DNA of 35,942 nucleotides from assembly GCF_023256195.1 (NCBI RefSeq), contig NZ_JAGDWX010000017.1, positions 1 through 35,942 on the forward strand. The letters run 5' to 3'. The translations under genes and the position numbers were made by a program. Below, piece after piece: positions 6,162 through 18,072 of this stretch. The notes under the pieces are model-generated. The model was given only the letters and a program-made list of their open reading frames with translations. It was not told where the DNA came from and did not search any database. Source of the stretch: Acidithiobacillus sp. (GTDB lineage Bacteria; Pseudomonadota; Gammaproteobacteria; Acidithiobacillales; Acidithiobacillaceae). Within the stretch, counting starts at the first letter, position 1, and every line of letters starts with the position of its first letter.

Positions 6162-8705
6162 ATGGTGGACTTCGCCAAAGAAACCATCCCCGTCAGTCTC
6201 GAAAAGGAAATGCGCCAGTCCTACCTCGATTACGCCATGAGCGTCATCGTCGGTCGGGCTCTGCCGGACGCCCGGGATGGTCTGAAGCCTGTGCACCGGC
6301 GGGTGCTCTACGCCATGCACGAGATGGGCAACGATTGGAACAAGCCCTACAAGAAGTCCGCCCGTGTGGTGGGCGATGTGATCGGCAAGTATCACCCCCA
6401 CGGTGATGTAGCGGTCTACGACACCATCGTGCGCATGGCCCAGGACTTTTCCATGCGTTATCCCCTCATCGACGGCCAGGGCAACTTCGGCTCCGTGGAT
6501 GGTGACAGCCCGGCGGCCATGCGTTACACCGAAGTGCGCATGTCCCGCATCGCCCACGAGATGCTCGCCGATATCGAGCGCGAGACCGTGGATTTTGGCC
6601 CCAACTACGACGAGAAGGAAGTGGAGCCGCAGGTGCTGCCGGCGCGCATACCCAACCTGCTCATCAACGGTTCGGCGGGTATTGCCGTGGGTATGGCCAC
6701 CAATATCCCGCCCCACAATCTCAGCGAAGTCCTGAGCGCCTGCATTGCCCTGGTGGACGACGACGATCTGCCCGATAGCGAGCTGTTCCGGCTGGTGCCG
6801 GCGCCGGACTTCCCCACGGCGGGGATCCTTCTGGGTAACGAAGGAGCCATCGAGGCCTACCGTAGTGGGCGCGGGCGCGTGGTCATGCGGGCGCGGGCGG
6901 AGATCGAGACCGATGCCAAAAGCGGGCGGCAGACCATTGCCGTCAGCGAGCTGCCCTATCAGGTCAACAAGGCCAAGCTCATCGAGCGCATCGCCGAGAT
7001 GGTCAAGGAAAAGCGCCTGGAGGGTATCAGCGACCTGCGCGACGAGTCGGATAAGTCCGGCATGCGTATCGCCATCGAACTCAAGCGCGATGCCAACGCC
7101 GAGGTGGTGCTCAACAACCTCTATCAGCACACCGCCTTGCAGAGCGTCTTCAACATCAACATGGTCGCCCTGTTGGACGGCGCGCCTCAGACCCTGGGCC
7201 TGCGCGACGCCCTGAAGGCCTTCTTGCGCCATCGGCGGGAGGTGGTGACCCGGCGCAGTATCTTTGAACTCAAAAAGGCCAGGGACCGTGCCCACATCCT
7301 GGAAGGTCTGGCCGTGGCCCTGGTCAATCTCGACCCCCTTATCGCCCTCATCCGGGCCGCCGCCAGTCCCGCCGAAGCCAAGGCGCAGATGCTTGCACGG
7401 GTGTGGGAGCCGGGTCTGGTGGCCGCATTGCTGGCCGAGCGCGGTGAGCCCTCGGCGGGGCTGCAGGCGGACGGCTATCACCTGTCCGAGGCCCAGGCCC
7501 AGGCCATCCTCGATCTGCGTCTGCACCGCCTGACGGGGCTGGAGCAGGACAAGATCCGCGAGGAATATCTGGGCTTGCTGGAGCGGATCCGCGAGCTTCT
7601 GGAGATTCTGGGCTCCGATGCCCGGCTCATGGCCGTGATCCGGGCCGAGCTCGTGGCTATCCGCGACCAGTACGGGGATGCGCGCCGCAGCGAGATCATC
7701 GCCGACACCGGTGCCATCGCCACCGAGGACCTCATCGCCGAAGAGAACATGGTGGTGACCTTCACGCACGCTGGCTACATCAAGGCCCAGCCCGTCACCA
7801 CCTTCAACGCGCAGCGGCGGGGCGGGCGGGGCAAGGTGGCCACGACCACCAAGGAAGAGGATTTCGTTGAGCGGATGTTCTGCGCCTCTACCCACGCCAC
7901 GGTGCTGTTCTTCAGCAATCTTGGCAAGGTTTTCTGGCAGAAGGTCTACCAGCTTCCGCAAAGCGGCCGTAGTGCGCGGGGCAAGCCCATCGTCAATCTG
8001 TTGTCCTTGGCCCCCAGCGAAGGCATCACCACCGTGCTGCCGGTGCGGGAGTTCCAGGAGGGCCAGTTCGTCTGCATGGTCACCGCCCACGGCGTGGTCA
8101 AGAAGACGCCGCTCATGGAGTATTCCCGTCCCCGCAGTCAGGGAATCAATGCCATCAACCTGGACCCAGGCGACCGTCTGGTGGCCGTCTGTCTGTCCGA
8201 TGGTCAGCGCGAGTTCATGCTCTTCACGCGCAAAGGTATGGCCGTGCGCTTCCCCGAAGACAAGGTCCGACCCATGGGGCGGACGGCGCGCGGGGTGCGT
8301 GGAATCTCCCTGGATGCCGACGATCGCGTCATATCGGCGCAGATCGTCGATCCCCGTCAGGTCATCCTCACCGCTACCGCCCGTGGCTACGGCAAGCTGA
8401 CCAATGTCGAGGAGTACCGCCGTACCAACCGCGGCGGCAAAGGCGTCATCGCCATTCAGACCAATGCCCGCAACGGTCCGGTGGTGGGTGCACTGGCCGT
8501 CACGGAGTCGGACGAACTCATGCTGGTATCCAACAGCGGCACCCTCATCCGCATTGCCGTGCAGGGGATCCGCCGCACCGGACGCAATGCGCAGGGGGTA
8601 CGCCTCATCCATCTGGCCGCAGACGAGCAGTTGGCGGGTCTCGCCCTCATTGCCGATGCTCAGGAAGATGCGGGTCAGTGCGATTTTGACCTGGAGACCG
8701 AATGA
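6162..8705 (+). CDS. gyrA: DNA gyrase subunit A
   Basis: This is the breakage-reunion subunit of the A2B2 gyrase that introduces negative supercoils. The 847 residues contain the winged-helix and tower domains with active-site Tyr122 ([11 protein letters not shown]). The C-terminal pinwheel carries an intact GyrA box, QRRGGRGK (about residue 550), which distinguishes it from ParC. The quinolone-determining stretch reads [10 protein letters not shown], so position 83 is Val (codon GTA) where E. coli has Ser; Asp87 is kept. ATG at 6162 has AAGGA upstream (6145-6149). The stop overlaps the serC start as ATGA, so gyrA heads the aromatic gene block. Confidence 0.98.
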
Positions 8706-9784
8706 GTCGGACGATCTACAATTTTGGCGCGGGACCGGCGCTCCTGCCGGCGCCGGTCATGGCGCGGGTGCAGGAAGAATTTCGCGATTGGCACGGCAGC
8801 GGTATGTCGGTGCTGGAAATGAGCCATCGTGGCAAGGAATATCAAGGCATCATCCAACAGGCGGAGCAGGATCTGCGGGACCTGCTGGCCATCCCCGACC
8901 ACTATCGGGTGCTCTTTCTGCAGGGCGGAGCCAGTCTCCAGTTTGCCATGGTCCCCCTCAATCTGCTGGCGGGCCGGACAGCGGCCTACGTCGAGACGGG
9001 TGTGTGGTCGCGCAAGGCCAGTCAGGAGGCGCGGCGGTTTGGCGAGGTGGCCATTGCCGCCAGCAATGCCGAGGGCGCGCGCGAGGTGCCGCCGCAGAAG
9101 GAGTGGCAGTTACCCGAGGACTGCGCCTATCTGCACATAGCCGGTAACGAGACCATCGACGGTATCGAGTTCGACTTTATCCCGGAGCTGGGGGAGGTGC
9201 CCTTGGTGAGCGATGCCTCCTCGCACCTACTGTCGCGGCCGCTGCCGGTGGAACGTTTCGGTCTCATCTACGCCGGCGCCCAGAAGAACATCGGGCCGGC
9301 GGGCCTTACCTTGGTCATCGTGCGTGAGGATCTGCTGGGGCGGGCCGACTCCCGCACCCCCACCATGCTGGATTATGCCGTGCACGCCCGCGAGCACTCC
9401 ATGTATAACACTCCGGCTACCTTCGCCATTTACGTTGCCGGTCTGGTATTCCAGTGGCTCAAGGATCTGGGCGGTCTGTCGGCCATGGAAAAGATCAACC
9501 GGACCAAGGCAGAGCTCCTCTACAGGGCCATCGACGACTCCGGCGGCTATTACCGCAATACCGTGACGCCGCGCAATCGCTCGCGCATGAATGTGCCTTT
9601 CTTTCTGCACGACAGTGCCCTGGATGCCCGCTTTCTGGAGGAGTCCCAGGCTGCCGGGCTGCTGCAGCTCAAGGGCCATCGCCTGCTGGGGGGCATGCGC
9701 GCCTCCATCTACAACGCCATGCCCCTGGAGGGGGTGGAGGCGCTGGTGGCCTTCCTGCGCGATTTCGCTGCCCGCCATGGCTGA
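8702..9784 (+). CDS. serC: Phosphoserine aminotransferase
   Basis: A PLP-dependent class V aminotransferase. It converts 3-phosphohydroxypyruvate to phosphoserine (serine synthesis) and makes 4-phosphohydroxythreonine for pyridoxal phosphate. The 360-residue length equals that of E. coli SerC (362). It starts [16 protein letters not shown], a family signature. The PLP lysine is in [13 protein letters not shown] (about residue 196), and the C-terminus has [15 protein letters not shown] overlaps the gyrA stop by 4 bases. Its own 3' end overlaps pheA by 8 bases. The serC-pheA-hisC linkage is known from pseudomonads and beta-proteobacteria. Confidence 0.97.
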
Positions 9785-10871
9785 AGGCCTTCCCAGCCTC
9801 CCCGCAGAGCTTGCATCGCTACGCGCCGAGATCGATCGGGTCGACTCGGAGATCCTGAAGCTTCTGGGAGAGCGCGGACGGCTGACGGCGGAAGTCGGAA
9901 AGCGCAAGCACGCCGCCGGGACCACCCAATACTATCATCCGGATCGGGAGGCCGAGATCCTGCACCGCGTCATGGCGGACAACCCCGGTCCTTTCAGCGA
10001 CCAGCAGGTGGCCCGGATATTTCGGGAGATCATCTCGGCAGGTCTGGCGCTGGAGGAGCCGCTGAGGGTGGCCTACCTCGGCCCCGAGGGTACCTTCTCG
10101 CAGATGGCGGCAGAAAAGCATTTCGGTCGCTCCGCGCAATTTCATCCCGTCACCAGCATTGCCGAGATCTTTCGCGAGGTGGATGGTGGACAGGTACCTT
10201 TTGGCGTGGTGCCGGTGGAAAACAGCACCGAAGGCTCCGTCAACCTCAGTCTCGATCTCATGCTCGATCACCCGCTGCAGATCTGTGGCGAGGTGCAACT
10301 ACGCATCGTCCATAATCTGGTCGGGCGCGGTCCGCGCAGCGCCATCCGCCGAGTCCACGTCCACTACCAGACGCGGGCCCAGTGTCGTCTGTGGCTGGCG
10401 GAACACCTGCCGCAGGTGGAGCTCTGCGACGCCCCCAGCAATGCCGAGGCGGCCCGACGTGCCGCCGTCGATCCGGAAAGTGCGGCCATCTCCACACAGC
10501 GGGCAGCGGAACTGGCGGGAGTGGACATCCTGGTGCCCGGCATCGAGGATCAGCCGGACAACACCACCCGGTTCTGGGTCATCGGCGGCATCAGCACCCG
10601 CCCGACGGGCGCCGACAAGACCAGTCTCGTGGTGGCGGGTGCGCATCGGGCCGGCAGTCTGCACCACCTGCTGTCGCCCTTTGCCGAGGCCGAGCTCAAC
10701 CTGACGCGTATCGAATCGCGGCCGGCCCGCGCCAATATCTGGGAATACGTCTTCTACCTCGACTTCCTCGGCCATCGTCTGGAACCGCGGGTGGCCGCAG
10801 TCCTCCAGCGTATCGAGGCCCAGGCGTCTTTCTATCGGTGTTTGGGGAGCTATCCCCGGGCGGTGTTCTGA
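9777..10871 (+). CDS. pheA: Bifunctional chorismate mutase / prephenate dehydratase (P-protein)
   Basis: The protein converts chorismate to prephenate and prephenate to phenylpyruvate. The 364 residues comprise three domains. An AroQ chorismate mutase spans about 10-95 (LRAEIDRVDSEILKLLGER). A prephenate dehydratase spans about 100-275 (AYLGPEGTFSQMAAEKHFG, VPVENSTEGSVN, and the catalytic TRF motif in NTTRFWVIG). A C-terminal ACT domain spans about 283-360, with GSLHHLL and ESRP motifs that bind phenylalanine in homologues, predicting feedback inhibition. ATG 9777 lies inside the serC 3' end. The same frame stays open further upstream, but that part is antisense-free serC sequence without homology. 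The TGA overlaps the next ATG by one base. Confidence 0.97.
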   Translation: MAEGLPSLPAELASLRAEIDRVDSEILKLLGERGRLTAEVGKRKHAAGTTQYYHPDREAEILHRVMADNPGPFSDQQVARIFREIISAGLALEEPLRVAYLGPEGTFSQMAAEKHFGRSAQFHPVTSIAEIFREVDGGQVPFGVVPVENSTEGSVNLSLDLMLDHPLQICGEVQLRIVHNLVGRGPRSAIRRVHVHYQTRAQCRLWLAEHLPQVELCDAPSNAEAARRAAVDPESAAISTQRAAELAGVDILVPGIEDQPDNTTRFWVIGGISTRPTGADKTSLVVAGAHRAGSLHHLLSPFAEAELNLTRIESRPARANIWEYVFYLDFLGHRLEPRVAAVLQRIEAQASFYRCLGSYPRAVF

Positions 10872-11977
10872 TGCAGGACAATCCTTATCTGGAATGGGCC
10901 GTGCCGGCCCTGGCGCAGCTACGTCCCTACCAACCCGGCAAGCCCCTGGCCGAGCTGGAACGCGAGCTGGGTATTCGCGGGGCCATCAAGCTTGCTTCCA
11001 ACGAGAATCCCCTGGGGCCAAGCCCCAAGGCCCTGGCCGCTATCAGCGAGGCCCTGCCGACACTCGCCCTCTATCCCGAAGGCGCAGTCCCGCAGCTACG
11101 ACAGGCCTTGGCGGAAGCTCTCCAGCTGGATCCCCGGCAGCTGATCTTTGGCAACGGGTCGGACCAGATCATCGAGCTCCTGTGCCGTGCCTTTGCCGGT
11201 CCGGGGCGTGAGGTCATCCTGTCCCAGTACGCCTTTGCCGCTTACGGTATTGCGGCGCGATCCGTCGGAGCGACGGTGCGGGAGGCTCCGGCACAGGCCT
11301 TTGCCCACGATCTCGACGCCATGGCCGGCCTCATCAACGGCCACACCCGTCTCATCTTCATCGCCAACCCCAACAATCCCACGGGCACCTGGTGGCGAGC
11401 GGCGGAGCTGGAACGGTTCCTGGCCAGCGTGCCGGCTCACGCCCTGGTGGTCATCGACGAGGCCTACGCGGAACTCATGGAAGATCCGCAATATCCCGAT
11501 GCCCTGGCCTTTCTGTCGCGCTTCGAGAACGTGGTAGTGCTGCGCACCTTCTCCAAGGCCTACGGTCTGGCGGGTCTGCGCTGCGGCTATGGTGTCGCGC
11601 GGGCGGGGCTCATCGCGCTTCTGGAACGCATGCGTCAGCCCTTCAACGTCAATACCCTGGCGCAGGTGGCTGCGCTGGCTGCCCTGGGCGACCAGACCCA
11701 CCTCGCGGCCACTCGGGACAACAACCGCCTCGGTCTGCAGCAGCTGCAGCGTGGGCTGCTCGCCCTGGGATTGACAACCCTGCCGGCGGCAGGCAACTTT
11801 ATCACCTTTTTTGCGCCCGGGGGCGGGCGGCAGGTCTACGAAGCCCTGCTGCGGCGCGGTGTCATCGTCCGTCCCCTCGAGCCCTATGGTCTGTCCGAAT
11901 ACCTTCGGGTCAGTGTCGGCACGCCAGAGGAAAATCAACGCTTCTTGCAGAGCTTGGGCGAGGTGCTTTCGTCATGA
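10871..11977 (+). CDS. hisC: Histidinol-phosphate / aromatic aminotransferase HisC
   Basis: A fold-type I PLP aminotransferase of 368 residues. It has the KLASNENPLGPSPKA substrate segment, NPNNPTG, the DEAYAEL aspartate motif, and the PLP lysine in RTFSKAYGLAGLRCGYG (about residue 228). Its place between pheA and the DAHP synthase gene suggests that it transaminates phenylpyruvate and hydroxyphenylpyruvate, or acts on both aromatic substrates and histidinol phosphate, as proposed for HisC-type enzymes in aromatic supraoperons. That substrate range is inferred from context; the sequence alone does not decide. The start uses TGATG coupling with pheA, and the stop overlaps aroF as ATGA. Confidence 0.92.
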   Translation: MQDNPYLEWAVPALAQLRPYQPGKPLAELERELGIRGAIKLASNENPLGPSPKALAAISEALPTLALYPEGAVPQLRQALAEALQLDPRQLIFGNGSDQIIELLCRAFAGPGREVILSQYAFAAYGIAARSVGATVREAPAQAFAHDLDAMAGLINGHTRLIFIANPNNPTGTWWRAAELERFLASVPAHALVVIDEAYAELMEDPQYPDALAFLSRFENVVVLRTFSKAYGLAGLRCGYGVARAGLIALLERMRQPFNVNTLAQVAALAALGDQTHLAATRDNNRLGLQQLQRGLLALGLTTLPAAGNFITFFAPGGGRQVYEALLRRGVIVRPLEPYGLSEYLRVSVGTPEENQRFLQSLGEVLSS

Positions 11978-12990
11978 TCGTCATTGTCAAACCCGATGCC
12001 ACGGCGGCGCAGTTGGAGCAGCTGCTGGGTCGGATCCGTGAGCTGGGTCTCACCCCCATGGTCAGTCAGGGGGCCGAGCGCACCGTGGTGGGCCTTATCG
12101 GTGACGAGCGCCTGGTCAGCGACGGCGTCCTCGAGTCCTTGCCCGCGGTAGAACAGGTCATGCCCATCTTGAAACCCTATAAACTGGTCAGCCGAGAATT
12201 CAAAAAGACCGACAGTATCGTCGAGGTGCGAGGCATTCCCTTCGGTGGGCCCGAGATCCAGGTCATCGCCGGTCCCTGCTCGGTGGAGACGGCCGAACAG
12301 ATGCGCAAGGCGGCGGAGGCGGTGCGGGCGGCGGGCTGCCGCCTCATGCGCGGCGGTGCCTTCAAGCCGCGCACCAGTCCCTATACCTTCCAAGGCGTCG
12401 GCGATGAAGGTCTGGACTTTTTCCGCGAGGCGGCCGATGCCTACGACCTGCCCATCGTCACCGAGCTCATGGACGTCCGCAAGATCGACGTCTTTTTGGA
12501 AAAGAAGGTGGATGTCATCCAGATCGGCACCCGCAACATGCAGAACTTCGATCTGCTCAAAGAGGTGGGACGCCTGAACGTGCCCGTCATCCTCAAGCGG
12601 GGCATGAGCGCCACCATCAAGGAATGGCTGATGGCGGCGGAGTACATCGCCGCCCACGGCAACCACCGGATCATCTTTGCCGAGCGCGGCATCCGTACCT
12701 TTGAGACCCAGTACCGCAATGTGCTGGATGTCACCGCCATCCCGGTGCTCAAAAAGGAGACCCACCTGCCCGTCATCGTCGATCCCAGCCACGCGGGCGG
12801 CAAGGCGGCGCTGGTGGCACCGCTGGCCAAGGCGGCCATTGCCGCCGGTGCCGATGGTCTGCTCATCGAGTCCCACCCCTGTCCCGAGGAGGCTTGGTGC
12901 GATGCCGATCAGGCACTGAGTCCCGAGCAGTTGACGCAGCTGATGGGGGAACTGCGACGGGTAGCCGAGGCCATCGGGCGCACGCTGTAG
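11974..12990 (+). CDS. aroF: 3-deoxy-7-phosphoheptulonate (DAHP) synthase, type I-beta with N-terminal ferredoxin-like domain
   Basis: First enzyme of the shikimate pathway: phosphoenolpyruvate plus erythrose-4-phosphate give DAHP. At 338 residues it matches the Thermotoga maritima enzyme in length and layout. Residues 1-70 (MIVIVKPDATAAQLEQLLGR...) form the ferredoxin-like regulatory domain that mediates Tyr/Phe inhibition in that family. Residues about 90-338 form the TIM barrel. Metal- and substrate-binding motifs are AGPCSVET (Cys near 102), KPRTSPYTFQG, LKRGM, FAERGIRTFE and DPSHAGGK. It starts inside the hisC stop codon. Pseudomonad aromatic supraoperons usually lack a DAHP synthase at this position. 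Confidence 0.95.
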   Translation: MIVIVKPDATAAQLEQLLGRIRELGLTPMVSQGAERTVVGLIGDERLVSDGVLESLPAVEQVMPILKPYKLVSREFKKTDSIVEVRGIPFGGPEIQVIAGPCSVETAEQMRKAAEAVRAAGCRLMRGGAFKPRTSPYTFQGVGDEGLDFFREAADAYDLPIVTELMDVRKIDVFLEKKVDVIQIGTRNMQNFDLLKEVGRLNVPVILKRGMSATIKEWLMAAEYIAAHGNHRIIFAERGIRTFETQYRNVLDVTAIPVLKKETHLPVIVDPSHAGGKAALVAPLAKAAIAAGADGLLIESHPCPEEAWCDADQALSPEQLTQLMGELRRVAEAIGRTL

Positions 12991-13005
12991 GGTCGGGAGC
13001 ACACC

Positions 13006-13902
13006 ATTTCCACCTCGTGGCCGTTTCGTACCGTCGCCGTCCTCGGCCTTGGCCTCATGGGCGGAAGCCTGGCCTTGGCCTTGCGCCGGAGCGGCTATGT
13101 CGGTGTGCTGCTGGGGGCCGGCGGCAGTCCGGAGGATCTAGGTCTTGCCGCTGCGGCAAGGTACCCGGCGGCGGATGGAACGGCGCCGGTATTCGATCGC
13201 TGCAGCGATGATCCGGCGCAGCTGCCCTGGGCCACGGTGGATCTCGTGGTACTGGCGACGCCGCCGGCGGCACTCCCCGAGATGTTCCGACGCCTGCGGG
13301 AGTGGATTCCGGCGACGACGGTGGTGACGGATCTGGCCAGCGTCAAGGGCGAAATCGTCGCCACCGGCGCCGCGTTGCTGGGCAGGCGCTATCTCAGCGC
13401 GCACCCCTTGGTAGGCGGCGAACGCCACGGTTTTGCGGCGGCCACGGGAGACCTTTATGCCGAAGCTCTGGTCCTGCTCACGCCGGGTGCAGCGGGCGCC
13501 GACGAGCGGGCGCTGGGCTTGGTACCGTTCTGGGAAGGCCTTGGTTGCCGAGTGCGGACGATGTCGCCGGCGGAGCACGACGATGCTCTGGCGGCCACTA
13601 GCCACCTGCCGCACCTGCTGGCTTATGCCTTCATGGCCAGCCTGGGTGACAGCGACGCCCTGCGTGACCTGGGCGGCAGTGGCCTGAGGGATTTCAGCCG
13701 AATCGCCGAGAGCGACCCCGCGCTCTGGACCGACATCCTCCTGCACAACCGGGAAGCCGTACGGCGGCGCCTGCAGGCCTTGCGCCACACCCTGGATGAT
13801 CTCGACGCGGCACTGGCCGAGGCGCGCGCGCCAGCCCTGGAAGAGGTCCTTGCCAGAGCGCGAAGCCGTCGGCAACAATTTCATTTTCCACCTCGTACGT
13901 GA
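13006..13902 (+). CDS. tyrA: Prephenate dehydrogenase TyrA, probable AUU start codon
   Basis: Oxidative decarboxylation of prephenate to 4-hydroxyphenylpyruvate with NAD(P)+. The first ATG in frame (13057) falls inside the dinucleotide-binding motif VLGLGLMGGSLA and would remove the first strand and most of the glycine loop. Between the aroF stop (12988-12990) and that ATG there is no in-frame ATG, GTG or TTG. ATT at 13006 has GGGAG at 12995-12999 with 6-nt spacing and gives a 298-residue protein of normal length. Other family motifs are TDLASVKGEIV, LSAHPLVGGERHGFAAA (with the SAHP histidine) and DDALAATSHLPHLLAYAF. No ACT domain is present. Function is certain; the start codon is inferred. 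Confidence 0.9.
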   Translation: MSTSWPFRTVAVLGLGLMGGSLALALRRSGYVGVLLGAGGSPEDLGLAAAARYPAADGTAPVFDRCSDDPAQLPWATVDLVVLATPPAALPEMFRRLREWIPATTVVTDLASVKGEIVATGAALLGRRYLSAHPLVGGERHGFAAATGDLYAEALVLLTPGAAGADERALGLVPFWEGLGCRVRTMSPAEHDDALAATSHLPHLLAYAFMASLGDSDALRDLGGSGLRDFSRIAESDPALWTDILLHNREAVRRRLQALRHTLDDLDAALAEARAPALEEVLARARSRRQQFHFPPRT

Positions 13903-13907
13903 GATTT

Positions 13908-15206
13908 ATGGACTATAAGGTCAATGCCGGTGGCTGCCTGCGCGGCCAGATCACCGTCCCCGGCGACAAATCGATTTCCCACCGCGTCGTCATGCTGGGC
14001 GCCATAGCCGAGGGTGTGACCGAAGCCGATGGATTGCTCGAGGGCGCGGACGTTCTGGCCACCATCGCCGCGTTCCGCAGCATGGGGGTCCGCATCGATG
14101 GACCCCGACAGGGGCATCTGCGCATCGAGGGGGTCGGTCTGCACGGCCTGCGGGCCCCCGCCGACACCATCGACTGCGGCAACTCCGGTACGGCCATGCG
14201 ACTACTCACGGGTTTGTTGGCGGGGCAGAGCTTCGACTCGACCCTGACCGGCGATGACAGCCTGCGGCGGCGACCCATGGGGCGGGTGCTTACGCCGCTG
14301 GCGCAGATGGGTGCCGAGATCCACGCTCAGGACGGGCGCGCGCCCCTTCACATCCACGGCCGTCCCCTGCGTGGTATCCACTACGATCTGCCCGTGGCCA
14401 GCGCCCAGGTCAAGTCGGCGGTCCTGCTTGCGGGTCTCTACGCTACCGGCGACACCTGCGTGCGCGAACCGGCGCCTACCCGCGACCATAGCGAACGCAT
14501 GCTCCAGGGCTTCGGCCAGTCGCTGCGCGTGGATGGTGCGCAGCGCTGCCTGAGCCCGGGCGCGCATCTGCGGGGACAGAGCCTGCGGGTGCCCGGGGAT
14601 ATTTCCTCCGCGGCCTTCTTCCTGCTGGGTGCCAGTATCGCAGCGAAATCCGATCTCTTGCTGGAAGGGGTAGGTATCAACCCCACCCGCACCGGCATCG
14701 TCGAGATCCTCACGCGGATGGGAGCGCGTATCGATCTCCTGCGTCTGCGTGAGGTGGGCGGGGAGCCGGTTGCCGACCTGCGCGTGCGTCACGCACCTTT
14801 GCGCGGAATCGACATCCCCGCCCGTCTGGTACCTCTGGCCATCGATGAGTTTCCGGCCATTTTCATCGCCGCCGCTGCCGCCGATGGCGTGACCCGCATC
14901 CGCGGGGCCGAAGAACTCCGGGTCAAGGAGAGCGATCGCATCGCCGTCATGGCCGCCGGTCTGCGCAGCCTGGGAATCGTGGTGGAAGAACTCGCCGACG
15001 GCGCCATCATCCACGGCGGTGCCTTGGGCGCCGGCGAGGTGGACAGCCACGGTGACCATCGCATCGCCATGGCCTTTGCCATGGCCGGGCTCATCGCCCG
15101 CGGACCCATCCACATCCGCGATTGCGCCAACGTCGCCACGTCTTTCCCGAATTTTCCGGAACTGGCCCGCGCCGCCGGCCTCGATCTCGAGGTACAGTCC
15201 TCGTGA
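13908..15206 (+). CDS. aroA: 3-phosphoshikimate 1-carboxyvinyltransferase (EPSP synthase), class II type
   Basis: The enzyme transfers the enolpyruvyl group of PEP to shikimate-3-phosphate and is the glyphosate target. The 432-residue product carries the four motifs associated with class II enzymes: GDKS (PGDKSISHR), RDHSE, SAQVK and NPTR. The glycine loop is GNSGTAMRLL, retaining Gly where the glyphosate-tolerant CP4 enzyme has Ala. The catalytic region ESDRIAVMAAGLR is intact. ATG 13908 is used here. GTG 13899, overlapping the tyrA stop as GTGA, is an in-frame alternative adding three residues; neither has a strong Shine-Dalgarno, consistent with coupling to tyrA. The stop overlaps the cmk start. 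Confidence 0.95.
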   Translation: MDYKVNAGGCLRGQITVPGDKSISHRVVMLGAIAEGVTEADGLLEGADVLATIAAFRSMGVRIDGPRQGHLRIEGVGLHGLRAPADTIDCGNSGTAMRLLTGLLAGQSFDSTLTGDDSLRRRPMGRVLTPLAQMGAEIHAQDGRAPLHIHGRPLRGIHYDLPVASAQVKSAVLLAGLYATGDTCVREPAPTRDHSERMLQGFGQSLRVDGAQRCLSPGAHLRGQSLRVPGDISSAAFFLLGASIAAKSDLLLEGVGINPTRTGIVEILTRMGARIDLLRLREVGGEPVADLRVRHAPLRGIDIPARLVPLAIDEFPAIFIAAAAADGVTRIRGAEELRVKESDRIAVMAAGLRSLGIVVEELADGAIIHGGALGAGEVDSHGDHRIAMAFAMAGLIARGPIHIRDCANVATSFPNFPELARAAGLDLEVQSS

Positions 15207-15910
15207 CGGCATCGGTGCCGGTCATTACCCTGGACGGGCCGGGAGGCGTCGGCAAGGGTACCCTTGGTCGCCACCTGGCACGCCGACTGGGCTGGCACCT
15301 CCTGGACAGCGGCGCCATCTACCGCGCGACGGCTCTGGCCGCGGCACGGGCGCAGGTAGATCTGGAGGATGTCCAGGGCTTGGTGGCCCTCGCTCGGGAT
15401 CTGCCCTTGCGCTTTGTCGAGGCGGGCGATGAAACCCAGATCTGGCTCGGCGACGAACGCATCGATATCGCCATCCGCAGCTCGGACGTGGGGCAGTGGG
15501 CCTCGCGCATCGCGGCATTGGCACCTCTGCGCGCTGCACTGTTGCAGCGGCAGCGGGATTTTCGCCAGCCCCCGGGTCTGGTGGCGGATGGTCGCGACAT
15601 GGGTACGGTGGTGTTCCCCGATGCGGGACTCAAGGTTTTTCTCACCGCCAGTGTCGAGGTACGCGCCGCGAGGCGGCTAAAACAGTTGATGGAACAGGGA
15701 AGTAGTGCTAATCTGGCGACCATCGCAGCAGAGATCGCCGAGCGGGATCGTCGGGATCGTGAGCGCAGTGTCGCCCCTTTGGTGGCGGCCACGGATGCAC
15801 GGGTCCTGGACACCAGCCAGCTGAGTGTTGCAGAAAGTTTTCGGGTCCTTGAAGGTTGGGTGGTTGACGCCTTCGGGGAGATTTTCGTCCGCCAGTCCGC
15901 TGGCATATGA
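15203..15910 (+). CDS. cmk: Cytidylate kinase
   Basis: Phosphorylates CMP and dCMP with ATP. The 235-residue length is close to E. coli Cmk (227). The P-loop is GPGGVGKGTLGRHLA near the N-terminus. LLDSGAIYRA is the CMP-binding segment, and DGRDMGTVVFPDA is diagnostic for the family. The C-terminal RDxxDRxR-type lid reads ERDRRDRERSVAPL. The start is GTG 15203, overlapping the aroA stop as GTGA, with GAGG at 15189-15192. It precedes rpsA, a very conserved order in gamma- and beta-proteobacteria. Confidence 0.96.
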   Translation: MTASVPVITLDGPGGVGKGTLGRHLARRLGWHLLDSGAIYRATALAAARAQVDLEDVQGLVALARDLPLRFVEAGDETQIWLGDERIDIAIRSSDVGQWASRIAALAPLRAALLQRQRDFRQPPGLVADGRDMGTVVFPDAGLKVFLTASVEVRAARRLKQLMEQGSSANLATIAAEIAERDRRDRERSVAPLVAATDARVLDTSQLSVAESFRVLEGWVVDAFGEIFVRQSAGI

Positions 15911-15919
15911 GCAGTCCGT

Positions 15920-15939
15920 GGGGCAGCGGAAGCTGCCCC
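15920..15939 (+). promoter_or_regulatory. rpsA leader hairpin with GGAA tetraloop, candidate S1 autoregulation element
   Basis: A perfect 8-bp stem GGGGCAGC/GCTGCCCC closes a GGAA loop in the 53-nt gap between cmk and rpsA, 24 nt before the rpsA ATG. In gamma-proteobacteria the rpsA translation initiation region folds into hairpins with GGA-containing loops that mediate S1 binding and autogenous control. No T-run follows, so it is not a simple terminator. Confidence 0.5.
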
Positions 15940-15963
15940 GGCACATGAGGCCTATCGAATTTT

Positions 15964-17691
15964 ATGACCACCCCACAAGCAGAAGTCCTGTCCGAACCCA
16001 GTTTTGCCGAGTTGTTTGAAGAGAGTCAGAGCACCCAGGGTATCAAGCCCGGAGATCTCCTCACGGGTGTCGTCACCCGCGTCGACAACGATTTCGTCAT
16101 CATCGACGTAGGTCTCAAGTCCGAAGGCCCGGTGCCCGCGGAGCAGTTCCGCAACAGCGAAGGCGAACTCGAGGTGAAGGTGGGCGACCGGGTGGAGGTG
16201 TGCCTGGAGTCCGTCGAAGACGGCATGGGCGAGACCAAGCTGTCCCGGGAGAAGGCGCGTCGCGCCAAGACCTGGGAAGAACTGGAGAAGGCCTTTGAAG
16301 AGGGCGCCGTGGTGCACGGTTTCCTCACCGGCAAGGTCAAGGGCGGGTTCACCGTCAGCATCGATGGCGTACGCGCCTTCCTGCCGGGTTCGCTGGTGGA
16401 CGTGCGCCCCGTGCGCGATGTGGCCTATCTCGAGGGCAAGGATCTCGAGATGAAGATCATCAAGCTCGATCGCAAGCGCAACAACGTCGTGGTGTCTCGT
16501 CGCGCAGTGGTGGAGCAGGAGCAGAGCGCCGAGCGTGGAGCGCTGCTGGAGAGCATTCAGGAAGGAGCCATCCTTGAGGGTGTGGTTAAGAATCTCACGG
16601 ATTACGGCGCCTTCATCGACCTGGGTGGTATCGACGGGCTGCTGCACATCACCGATATGGGCTGGCGCCGTGTCAAGCATCCCAGCGAAGTCGTCAGTGC
16701 GGGCGACGAGGTGCGCGTCATGGTGCTCAAGTTCGATCGCGAGCGCGGCCGTATCTCCCTGGGCATGAAGCAGCTGGGCGAGGATCCCTGGCAGGACATC
16801 TCCCGCCGTTACCCCGAGGGCACGCGGATCTTCGGTAAGGTCACCAACATCACGGACTACGGTGCCTTCGTCGAGATCGAAGAGGGAGTCGAAGGTCTCG
16901 TGCACGTTTCCGAGATCGACTGGACCAACAAGAATCTCAATCCGGCCAAGGCCTTGCACCTGGGGCAGGAAGTGGAGGTCATGGTTCTCGACATCGACGA
17001 AGAGCGTCGTCGCATCTCTTTGGGCATCAAGCAATGTCTGCCGAACCCCTGGGAAGAGTTTGCCCAGAATTATCAGAAGGGCGACCGGGTATCCGGGCAG
17101 ATCAAGAGCATCACCGACTTCGGCGTGTTCATCGGCCTCGAGGGTGGCATCGATGGTCTCATTCACCTGTCCGATCTGTCCTGGGATCGCCCCGGCGAAG
17201 AGGCGGTTCGGGACTTCAAGAAGGGCGACGACCTGGAGGCCGTGGTGCTCAGCATCGACCCCGAGCGCGAGCGTATCTCCCTGGGCATCAAGCAGATGGA
17301 AACCGATCCCTTCATCCAGTTCGTGGTCGCCAACGACAAGGGCAGCCTGACCGAGGGAGAGGTCGTCTCCGTGGACGGTAAAGGTGCGGTCATCAAGGTC
17401 GCGGAGGGTGTGGAAGGCTTCCTGCCGGCACGGGAATTTGCGCGCGGCAATGCACCTGAGGTGGGAGACCGCATCGATGTGGCCATTGCCAGCATCGACC
17501 GCAAGAACCGTACCCTGACCCTGAGCACCAAGGCCCAGACCGTGCGCGAGAGCGGCGGCCACGGCGGCGGTGGCCATGAGGACAACTCGGCGCTGAATCA
17601 GCAGTACGCTCGCAGCGCGGCCACCGGAACGACCAGCCTCGGAGATCTGATCAAGGAACAGCTCAAGCGCAAGCAGGAAGAAGAAAGCTGA
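15964..17691 (+). CDS. rpsA: 30S ribosomal protein S1
   Basis: An mRNA-binding ribosomal protein needed for initiation on weak Shine-Dalgarno mRNAs. The 575 residues hold six S1 OB-fold repeats. Repeats start near [84 protein letters not shown] and [17 protein letters not shown]. The first two are the diverged ribosome-binding repeats. The C-terminal tail is acidic and Lys/Glu-rich. ATG 15964 has only GAGG (15947-15950) 13 nt upstream, so the initiation region is weak, as is usual for rpsA. ihfB follows after an 81-nt structured gap. Confidence 0.98.
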
Positions 17692-17710
17692 TCCCACGCC
17701 GCACTCTCTG

Positions 17711-17745
17711 CCCCGCGCCGCCAGCACGTCGGCGCGTGGGCGGGG
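17711..17745 (+). other. GC-rich hairpin between rpsA and ihfB
   Basis: CCCCGC (17711-17716) pairs with GCGGGG (17740-17745), and the inner GCCG pairs with CGGC (17717-17720 with 17730-17733). A competing stem, CCCACGC (17693-17699) with GCGTGGG (17734-17740), is mutually exclusive with it. There is no T-tract. This may attenuate or process the rpsA-ihfB transcript, but is weakly supported. Confidence 0.3.
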
Positions 17746-17772
17746 TTGCCGTTCAGAAGAGAGTTCATAATC

Positions 17773-18072
17773 ATGACAAAATCGGAACTGATCAAGCTCA
17801 TGAGTGCCCAGTATCCTCACGTCAGTATCCGTGACATCGAACTGGCGACGCGCCACATGCTCGACTACCTGAGCGATGCCCTGCGCGAGAATGAGCGCAT
17901 CGAGATTCGTGGTTTCGGCAGCTTTTCCCTGCACATCCGTCCCGAAAAACAGGGGCGCAATCCCAAGACGGGAGAGCCGGTCTGGGTCCCGGAAAAGCGC
18001 GTGCCCCATTTCAAGCCGGGCAAGGAATTGCGAGAGCAGGTGGACTATGCCCGTGCTGATGTGCAGGGCTGA
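17773..18072 (+). CDS. ihfB: Integration host factor subunit beta
   Basis: The 99-residue DNA-bending protein pairs with IhfA. It has the bacterial histone-like fold, with beta-arm [22 protein letters not shown] and IHF-beta-like C-terminal [14 protein letters not shown]. The start [10 protein letters not shown] at 17773 has GAGAG upstream (17759-17763). The rpsA-ihfB order is conserved and supports the beta-subunit assignment over HU. IHF is a plausible partner of the sigma-54 pilin promoter at 32.6 kb in this window. Confidence 0.95.

Follow-up and report, generated by a model that had tools for sequence, protein, structure and literature searches.

A candidate AUU start codon for tyrA in the Acidithiobacillus caldus lineage

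In Escherichia coli, infC starts at AUU and encodes IF3, so that its start codon closes a feedback loop. Few non-canonical starts are well characterized. An AUU start limits the expression of E. coli pcnB, according to the account of Binns and Masters (2002) given in PMC13009471, and IF3 represses initiation from non-canonical codons as well as reinitiation that lacks a Shine-Dalgarno sequence (PMC2268962). The sigR gene of Streptomyces starts at GTC, with SigR being lowered by extra IF3 and raised by mutations in IF3 fidelity (PMC5472188). In Staphylococcus aureus in poor medium, AUU and AUA starts work at ~10% of the level of AUG (PMC13009471).

By its sequence, the tyrA gene described here would join this kind of gene, of which infC, pcnB, cvfC1 and sigR are known members, and it would add to them a core biosynthetic enzyme with a conserved AUU. 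Like infC of E. coli, it would have an AUU initiator, which belongs to the same class as the AUC of infC in the genomes studied here, but the product of tyrA is a biosynthetic enzyme, and the Shine-Dalgarno sequence of tyrA is shorter than that of infC in the same genome. The pcnB gene of E. coli is similar in being a chromosomal AUU-start gene whose product is not a translation factor, although it is a different gene. The S. aureus genes cvfC1 (AUU) and ccpN (AUA) have a non-canonical start that is conserved in the genus and preceded by a Shine-Dalgarno sequence; these are again other genes, with an extended Shine-Dalgarno sequence, and their starts were shown by ribosome profiling and reporters (PMC13009471). 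Likewise, sigR has a conserved non-canonical start that limits one operon product, but its codon is GTC and its IF3 dependence was shown experimentally (PMC5472188). Our literature search found no report on a tyrA with an AUU start, and the titles and abstracts on A. caldus held nothing specific on tyrA starts.

The tyrA start region

The window, by which we mean the whole stretch of 35,942 nucleotides that was analyzed, is contig C25 of an Acidithiobacillus sp. draft genome of 1.98 Mb in 37 contigs. The TyrA protein matches Pfam PF02153 and PF20463 above cut-off and prephenate dehydrogenases of the PDB at E 1e-40, and it has the PDH_N and PDH_C domains and the glycine motif that binds NAD (Table 1).

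Table 1. Features of the aroF-tyrA-aroA region in the window
Feature	Position	Strand	Remarks
aroF, DAHP synthase (PRK08673/TIGR01361 family)	11974..12990	+	
aroF stop TAG	12988-12990	+	in the tyrA reading frame
aroF-tyrA spacer	12991..13005	+	15 nt; also 15 nt in A. caldus, 11/15 identical
Shine-Dalgarno GGGAG	12995..12999	+	6-nt spacer CACACC to ATT; GGAG core also in A. caldus
ATT, proposed AUU initiator of tyrA	13006..13008	+	
tyrA, prephenate dehydrogenase (PDH_N + PDH_C)	13006..13902	+	298 aa counted from AUU
NAD-binding motif GLGLMGGS	13045..13068	+	holds the first in-frame ATG (13057)
aroA (EPSP synthase)	13908..15206	+	next gene in the operon-like cluster

Direct reading found no ATG, GTG or TTG in the tyrA frame between the aroF stop and the ATG at 13057, as the initial annotation had claimed, and its placement of this ATG within the glycine motif and of an ATT 6 nt downstream from GGGAG also proved correct in coordinates and spacing. 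The codons that follow the TAG are GGT CGG GAG CAC ACC ATT TCC ACC TCG TGG CCG TTT CGT ACC, continued by GTC GCC GTC CTC GGC CTT GGC CTC ATG. Since aroF and tyrA share a frame, tyrA cannot use a start upstream of the TAG. Within these bounds, the ATT is the sole start with a Shine-Dalgarno sequence ahead of the NAD motif, and no in-frame ATG, GTG or TTG is able to yield the complete protein.

Runs of 22 codons free of ATG, GTG and TTG are not rare, occurring by a rough estimate about one time in three in random DNA. Thus, our case rests on the homology anchor and on conservation in A. caldus, not on absence alone. GGAG at a spacer of 4-9 nt precedes only 5 of the 187 ATT triplets on the + strand of the window (2.7%), but the hybridization energy of the tyrA Shine-Dalgarno sequence is only moderate, with 14% of those + strand ATTs being equally good. 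Nor is it extended, unlike that of infC in the same genome or those of the S. aureus cases.

The start codon in A. caldus and in other genera

We compared two genomes of the genus, that of the window (G000) and that of its nearest relative, A. caldus ATCC 51756 (G001), which has a chromosome of 2,777,717 bases and was identified by two non-chromosomal contigs that are 100% identical, over 9 kb searched, to the plasmids of A. caldus ATCC 51756. TyrA of A. caldus is 76% identical to that of the window. Its start region reads TAA-GGCGCGGAGCACGCC-ATT (in frame, TAA GGC GCG GAG CAC GCC ATT TCC ATT CAG TGG), and ATG, GTG and TTG are absent up to the equivalent Met of GLGLMGG. Common to the two genomes are the aroF stop, the 15 nt, the GGAGCAC core and the ATT, which is therefore found in both genus species examined (2/2). 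Conservation of the ATT alone is a weak argument, since the genome of the window has ATT in 57 aligned Ile pairs, and A. caldus shares it in 21 of these. However, the third codon positions of tyrA are only 57% identical (43% differ), which means that there was time for the single substitution back to AUG, yet neither lineage made it.

Outside the genus, at the loci of genera g2, g3 and g4, the tyrA start is canonical and the ATT start is absent. The canonical start lies 11-12 codons ahead of the glycine motif at 23 of 25 loci, while the other two (both g3) have ATG 19 codons ahead; in g2 and most of g4 it is an ATG at 12 codons, compared to 13 for the ATT of the window. The residues that follow the ATT resemble the N-termini of relatives (window STSWPFRTVAVLGLGLMGGS vs relative L004 TAFPFQRIAIVGLGLMGGS). 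The ATT is accordingly a near-cognate codon that occupies the homologous start position and follows a properly spaced Shine-Dalgarno sequence. In most relatives from other genera, tyrA starts one base past the aroF stop, and its Shine-Dalgarno sequence is usually weak, whereas in the A. caldus lineage the 15-nt spacer with its GGAG core intervenes. Since tyrA starts canonically in the other genera, the AUU start is derived in the A. caldus lineage, whose ancestor used a canonical codon. At one g4 locus (L009, genome G009), the start is apparently TTG, 11 codons ahead of the motif. This TTG, together with the ATT of the genus, indicates that the tyrA start codon has changed more than once in the family. 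We found no tyrA match in G013 (g4, 91% complete) or G019 (61% complete), possibly because of missing contigs, and a scan of genome contigs gave only three distant relatives, which were uninformative for the tyrA start.

The initial annotation had proposed AUU as the likely initiator and had called for the codon to be compared in related genomes. This comparison, with ATT in the congener and ATG in more distant genera, answers the concern over a sequencing error and supports the proposal well, through the A. caldus codon, the Shine-Dalgarno core, the lack of alternatives and the nearby canonical start in other genera.

infC and other candidate non-canonical starts in the same genomes

The infC start is ATC, in the context ATC GCG AC(A/G), in both genus members (loci L044 in G000 and L048 in A. 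caldus) and across the family (L037-L056). Thus, a start type sensitive to IF3 is already in use in these genomes. In the genus, GGGGAGGGTAGGACT stands ahead of this ATC. From the ATC onward, 27 codons of the genus infC are free of ATG, GTG and TTG.

We also scanned ~215 kb per genome in pairs, about a tenth of each genome, obtaining 125 non-overlapping ortholog pairs, of which 93 are likely coding by composition. The BLAST-extension screen over-calls, since alignments of close relatives extend through intergenic DNA and overlapping frames; it flagged 29 of the 93 likely coding pairs, which were then inspected by eye. By this judgment, tyrA and infC were the only genes in the scan whose first canonical codon lies inside a conserved domain. 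The pcnB gene was rejected as a second non-canonical candidate in this genus, as TTG codons are available.

Proposed initiation at AUU and its possible consequences

We conclude, with a probability of roughly 0.86, that tyrA is translated from the AUU at 13006, by an initiation that would be weak and sensitive to IF3 and would draw on its own Shine-Dalgarno sequence and probably on ribosomes terminating at aroF. The observed basis is the lack of alternatives, the homologous position, the conservation in two species and the AUC of infC in the same genomes; from it we infer actual initiation at AUU, the coupling to aroF, the low yield, the IF3 sensitivity and any selective reason.

We considered that TyrA might be made as an AroF-TyrA fusion by readthrough of the one stop that lies between the two frames. 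These frames do coincide in both genus members, across the 15-nt spacer, and translation through the aroF stop is otherwise open. Nevertheless, we consider readthrough improbable: the window has TAG where A. caldus has TAA, so that the codon has changed but is still a stop, the GGAG at Shine-Dalgarno distance would be superfluous, and in other genera AroF ends at the corresponding place, with tyrA having its own start out of frame with aroF. Another non-canonical codon, for example the GTC at 13030 or 13036, is a slimmer prospect still; although GTC starts exist, as in sigR of Streptomyces (PMC5472188), these two fall within the first beta strand, correspond to ATC in A. caldus and, by eye, lack a Shine-Dalgarno-like sequence at the right distance. 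The ATG at 13057 is the first canonical codon and might be thought to yield a truncated TyrA, but its Met is residue 18, while the alignment of solved prephenate dehydrogenases to TyrA begins at residue 6-10. A start there would therefore cost TyrA its first strand and half of the glycine loop that binds the dinucleotide, a loop conserved in relatives and in the solved structures, and we rejected it as hardly credible. Finally, an ATG lost through a sequencing or assembly error could be imagined in a draft of 37 contigs, but the equivalent ATT in the independent A. caldus genome excludes it, and we give it virtually no weight.

For initiation at AUU, we envisage that the initiator tRNA would read the codon as formyl-Met, with the GGGAG and its 6-nt spacer bringing the ribosome to it, probably helped by ribosomes that finish aroF 15 nt ahead of the AUU. 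The non-canonical codon should hold TyrA synthesis low relative to the neighboring genes and, as is expected from published non-canonical starts (infC, pcnB, sigR), should make it sensitive to IF3; both expectations follow from the published work on IF3 and on AUU and AUA starts. The lineage would have lost its canonical ancestral start, gained AUU and then kept it.

Why AUU was kept is a separate matter. What is known of IF3 makes it plausible that tyrosine synthesis is linked to IF3 by regulation, and drift is an equal alternative. It is an even bet that the AUU start, though real, has no regulatory role and arose by neutral drift, with the Shine-Dalgarno sequence and reinitiation from aroF giving enough TyrA; this reading concerns the reason only and is compatible with an AUU start. 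It is favored by the variety of tyrA start codons among family members (ATG, a TTG in G009 and the ATT of the genus), by the presence of ATT in only two species and by the lack of a regulatory structure: RNA folding was no better than shuffles in both species (z 0.25 and -0.14), and an Rfam search of window positions 8000-18000 gave no match to an RNA regulatory element. Against drift, AUG is one substitution away and is absent in both species despite the divergence at third positions. We regard as doubtful the more specific idea that AUU puts tyrosine synthesis in the A. caldus lineage under IF3 control, with TyrA increasing when free IF3 runs short and decreasing when it is abundant. If true, the supply of a biosynthetic enzyme would follow the condition of the translation apparatus, in the same cells in which infC (AUC) regulates itself and in a cluster that reaches rpsA. 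The replacement of a canonical start by ATT inside a single family is a lineage event that makes it possible to test what selective value a weak start has. In practice, gene callers that assume ATG, GTG or TTG would truncate tyrA.

The order of the cluster is gyrA, a class-V aminotransferase gene (serC-like), pheA (chorismate mutase/prephenate dehydratase), a class I/II aminotransferase gene (hisC-like), aroF, tyrA, aroA, cmk, rpsA and the gene of a histone-like/IHF protein. One stop parts the same-frame aroF and tyrA in both genus members, and its loss would fuse them. Although tyrA and aroA (13006-15206) are separate genes here, a single model of a bifunctional prephenate dehydrogenase/EPSP synthase (NF011381) provides the best match for both, in different parts.
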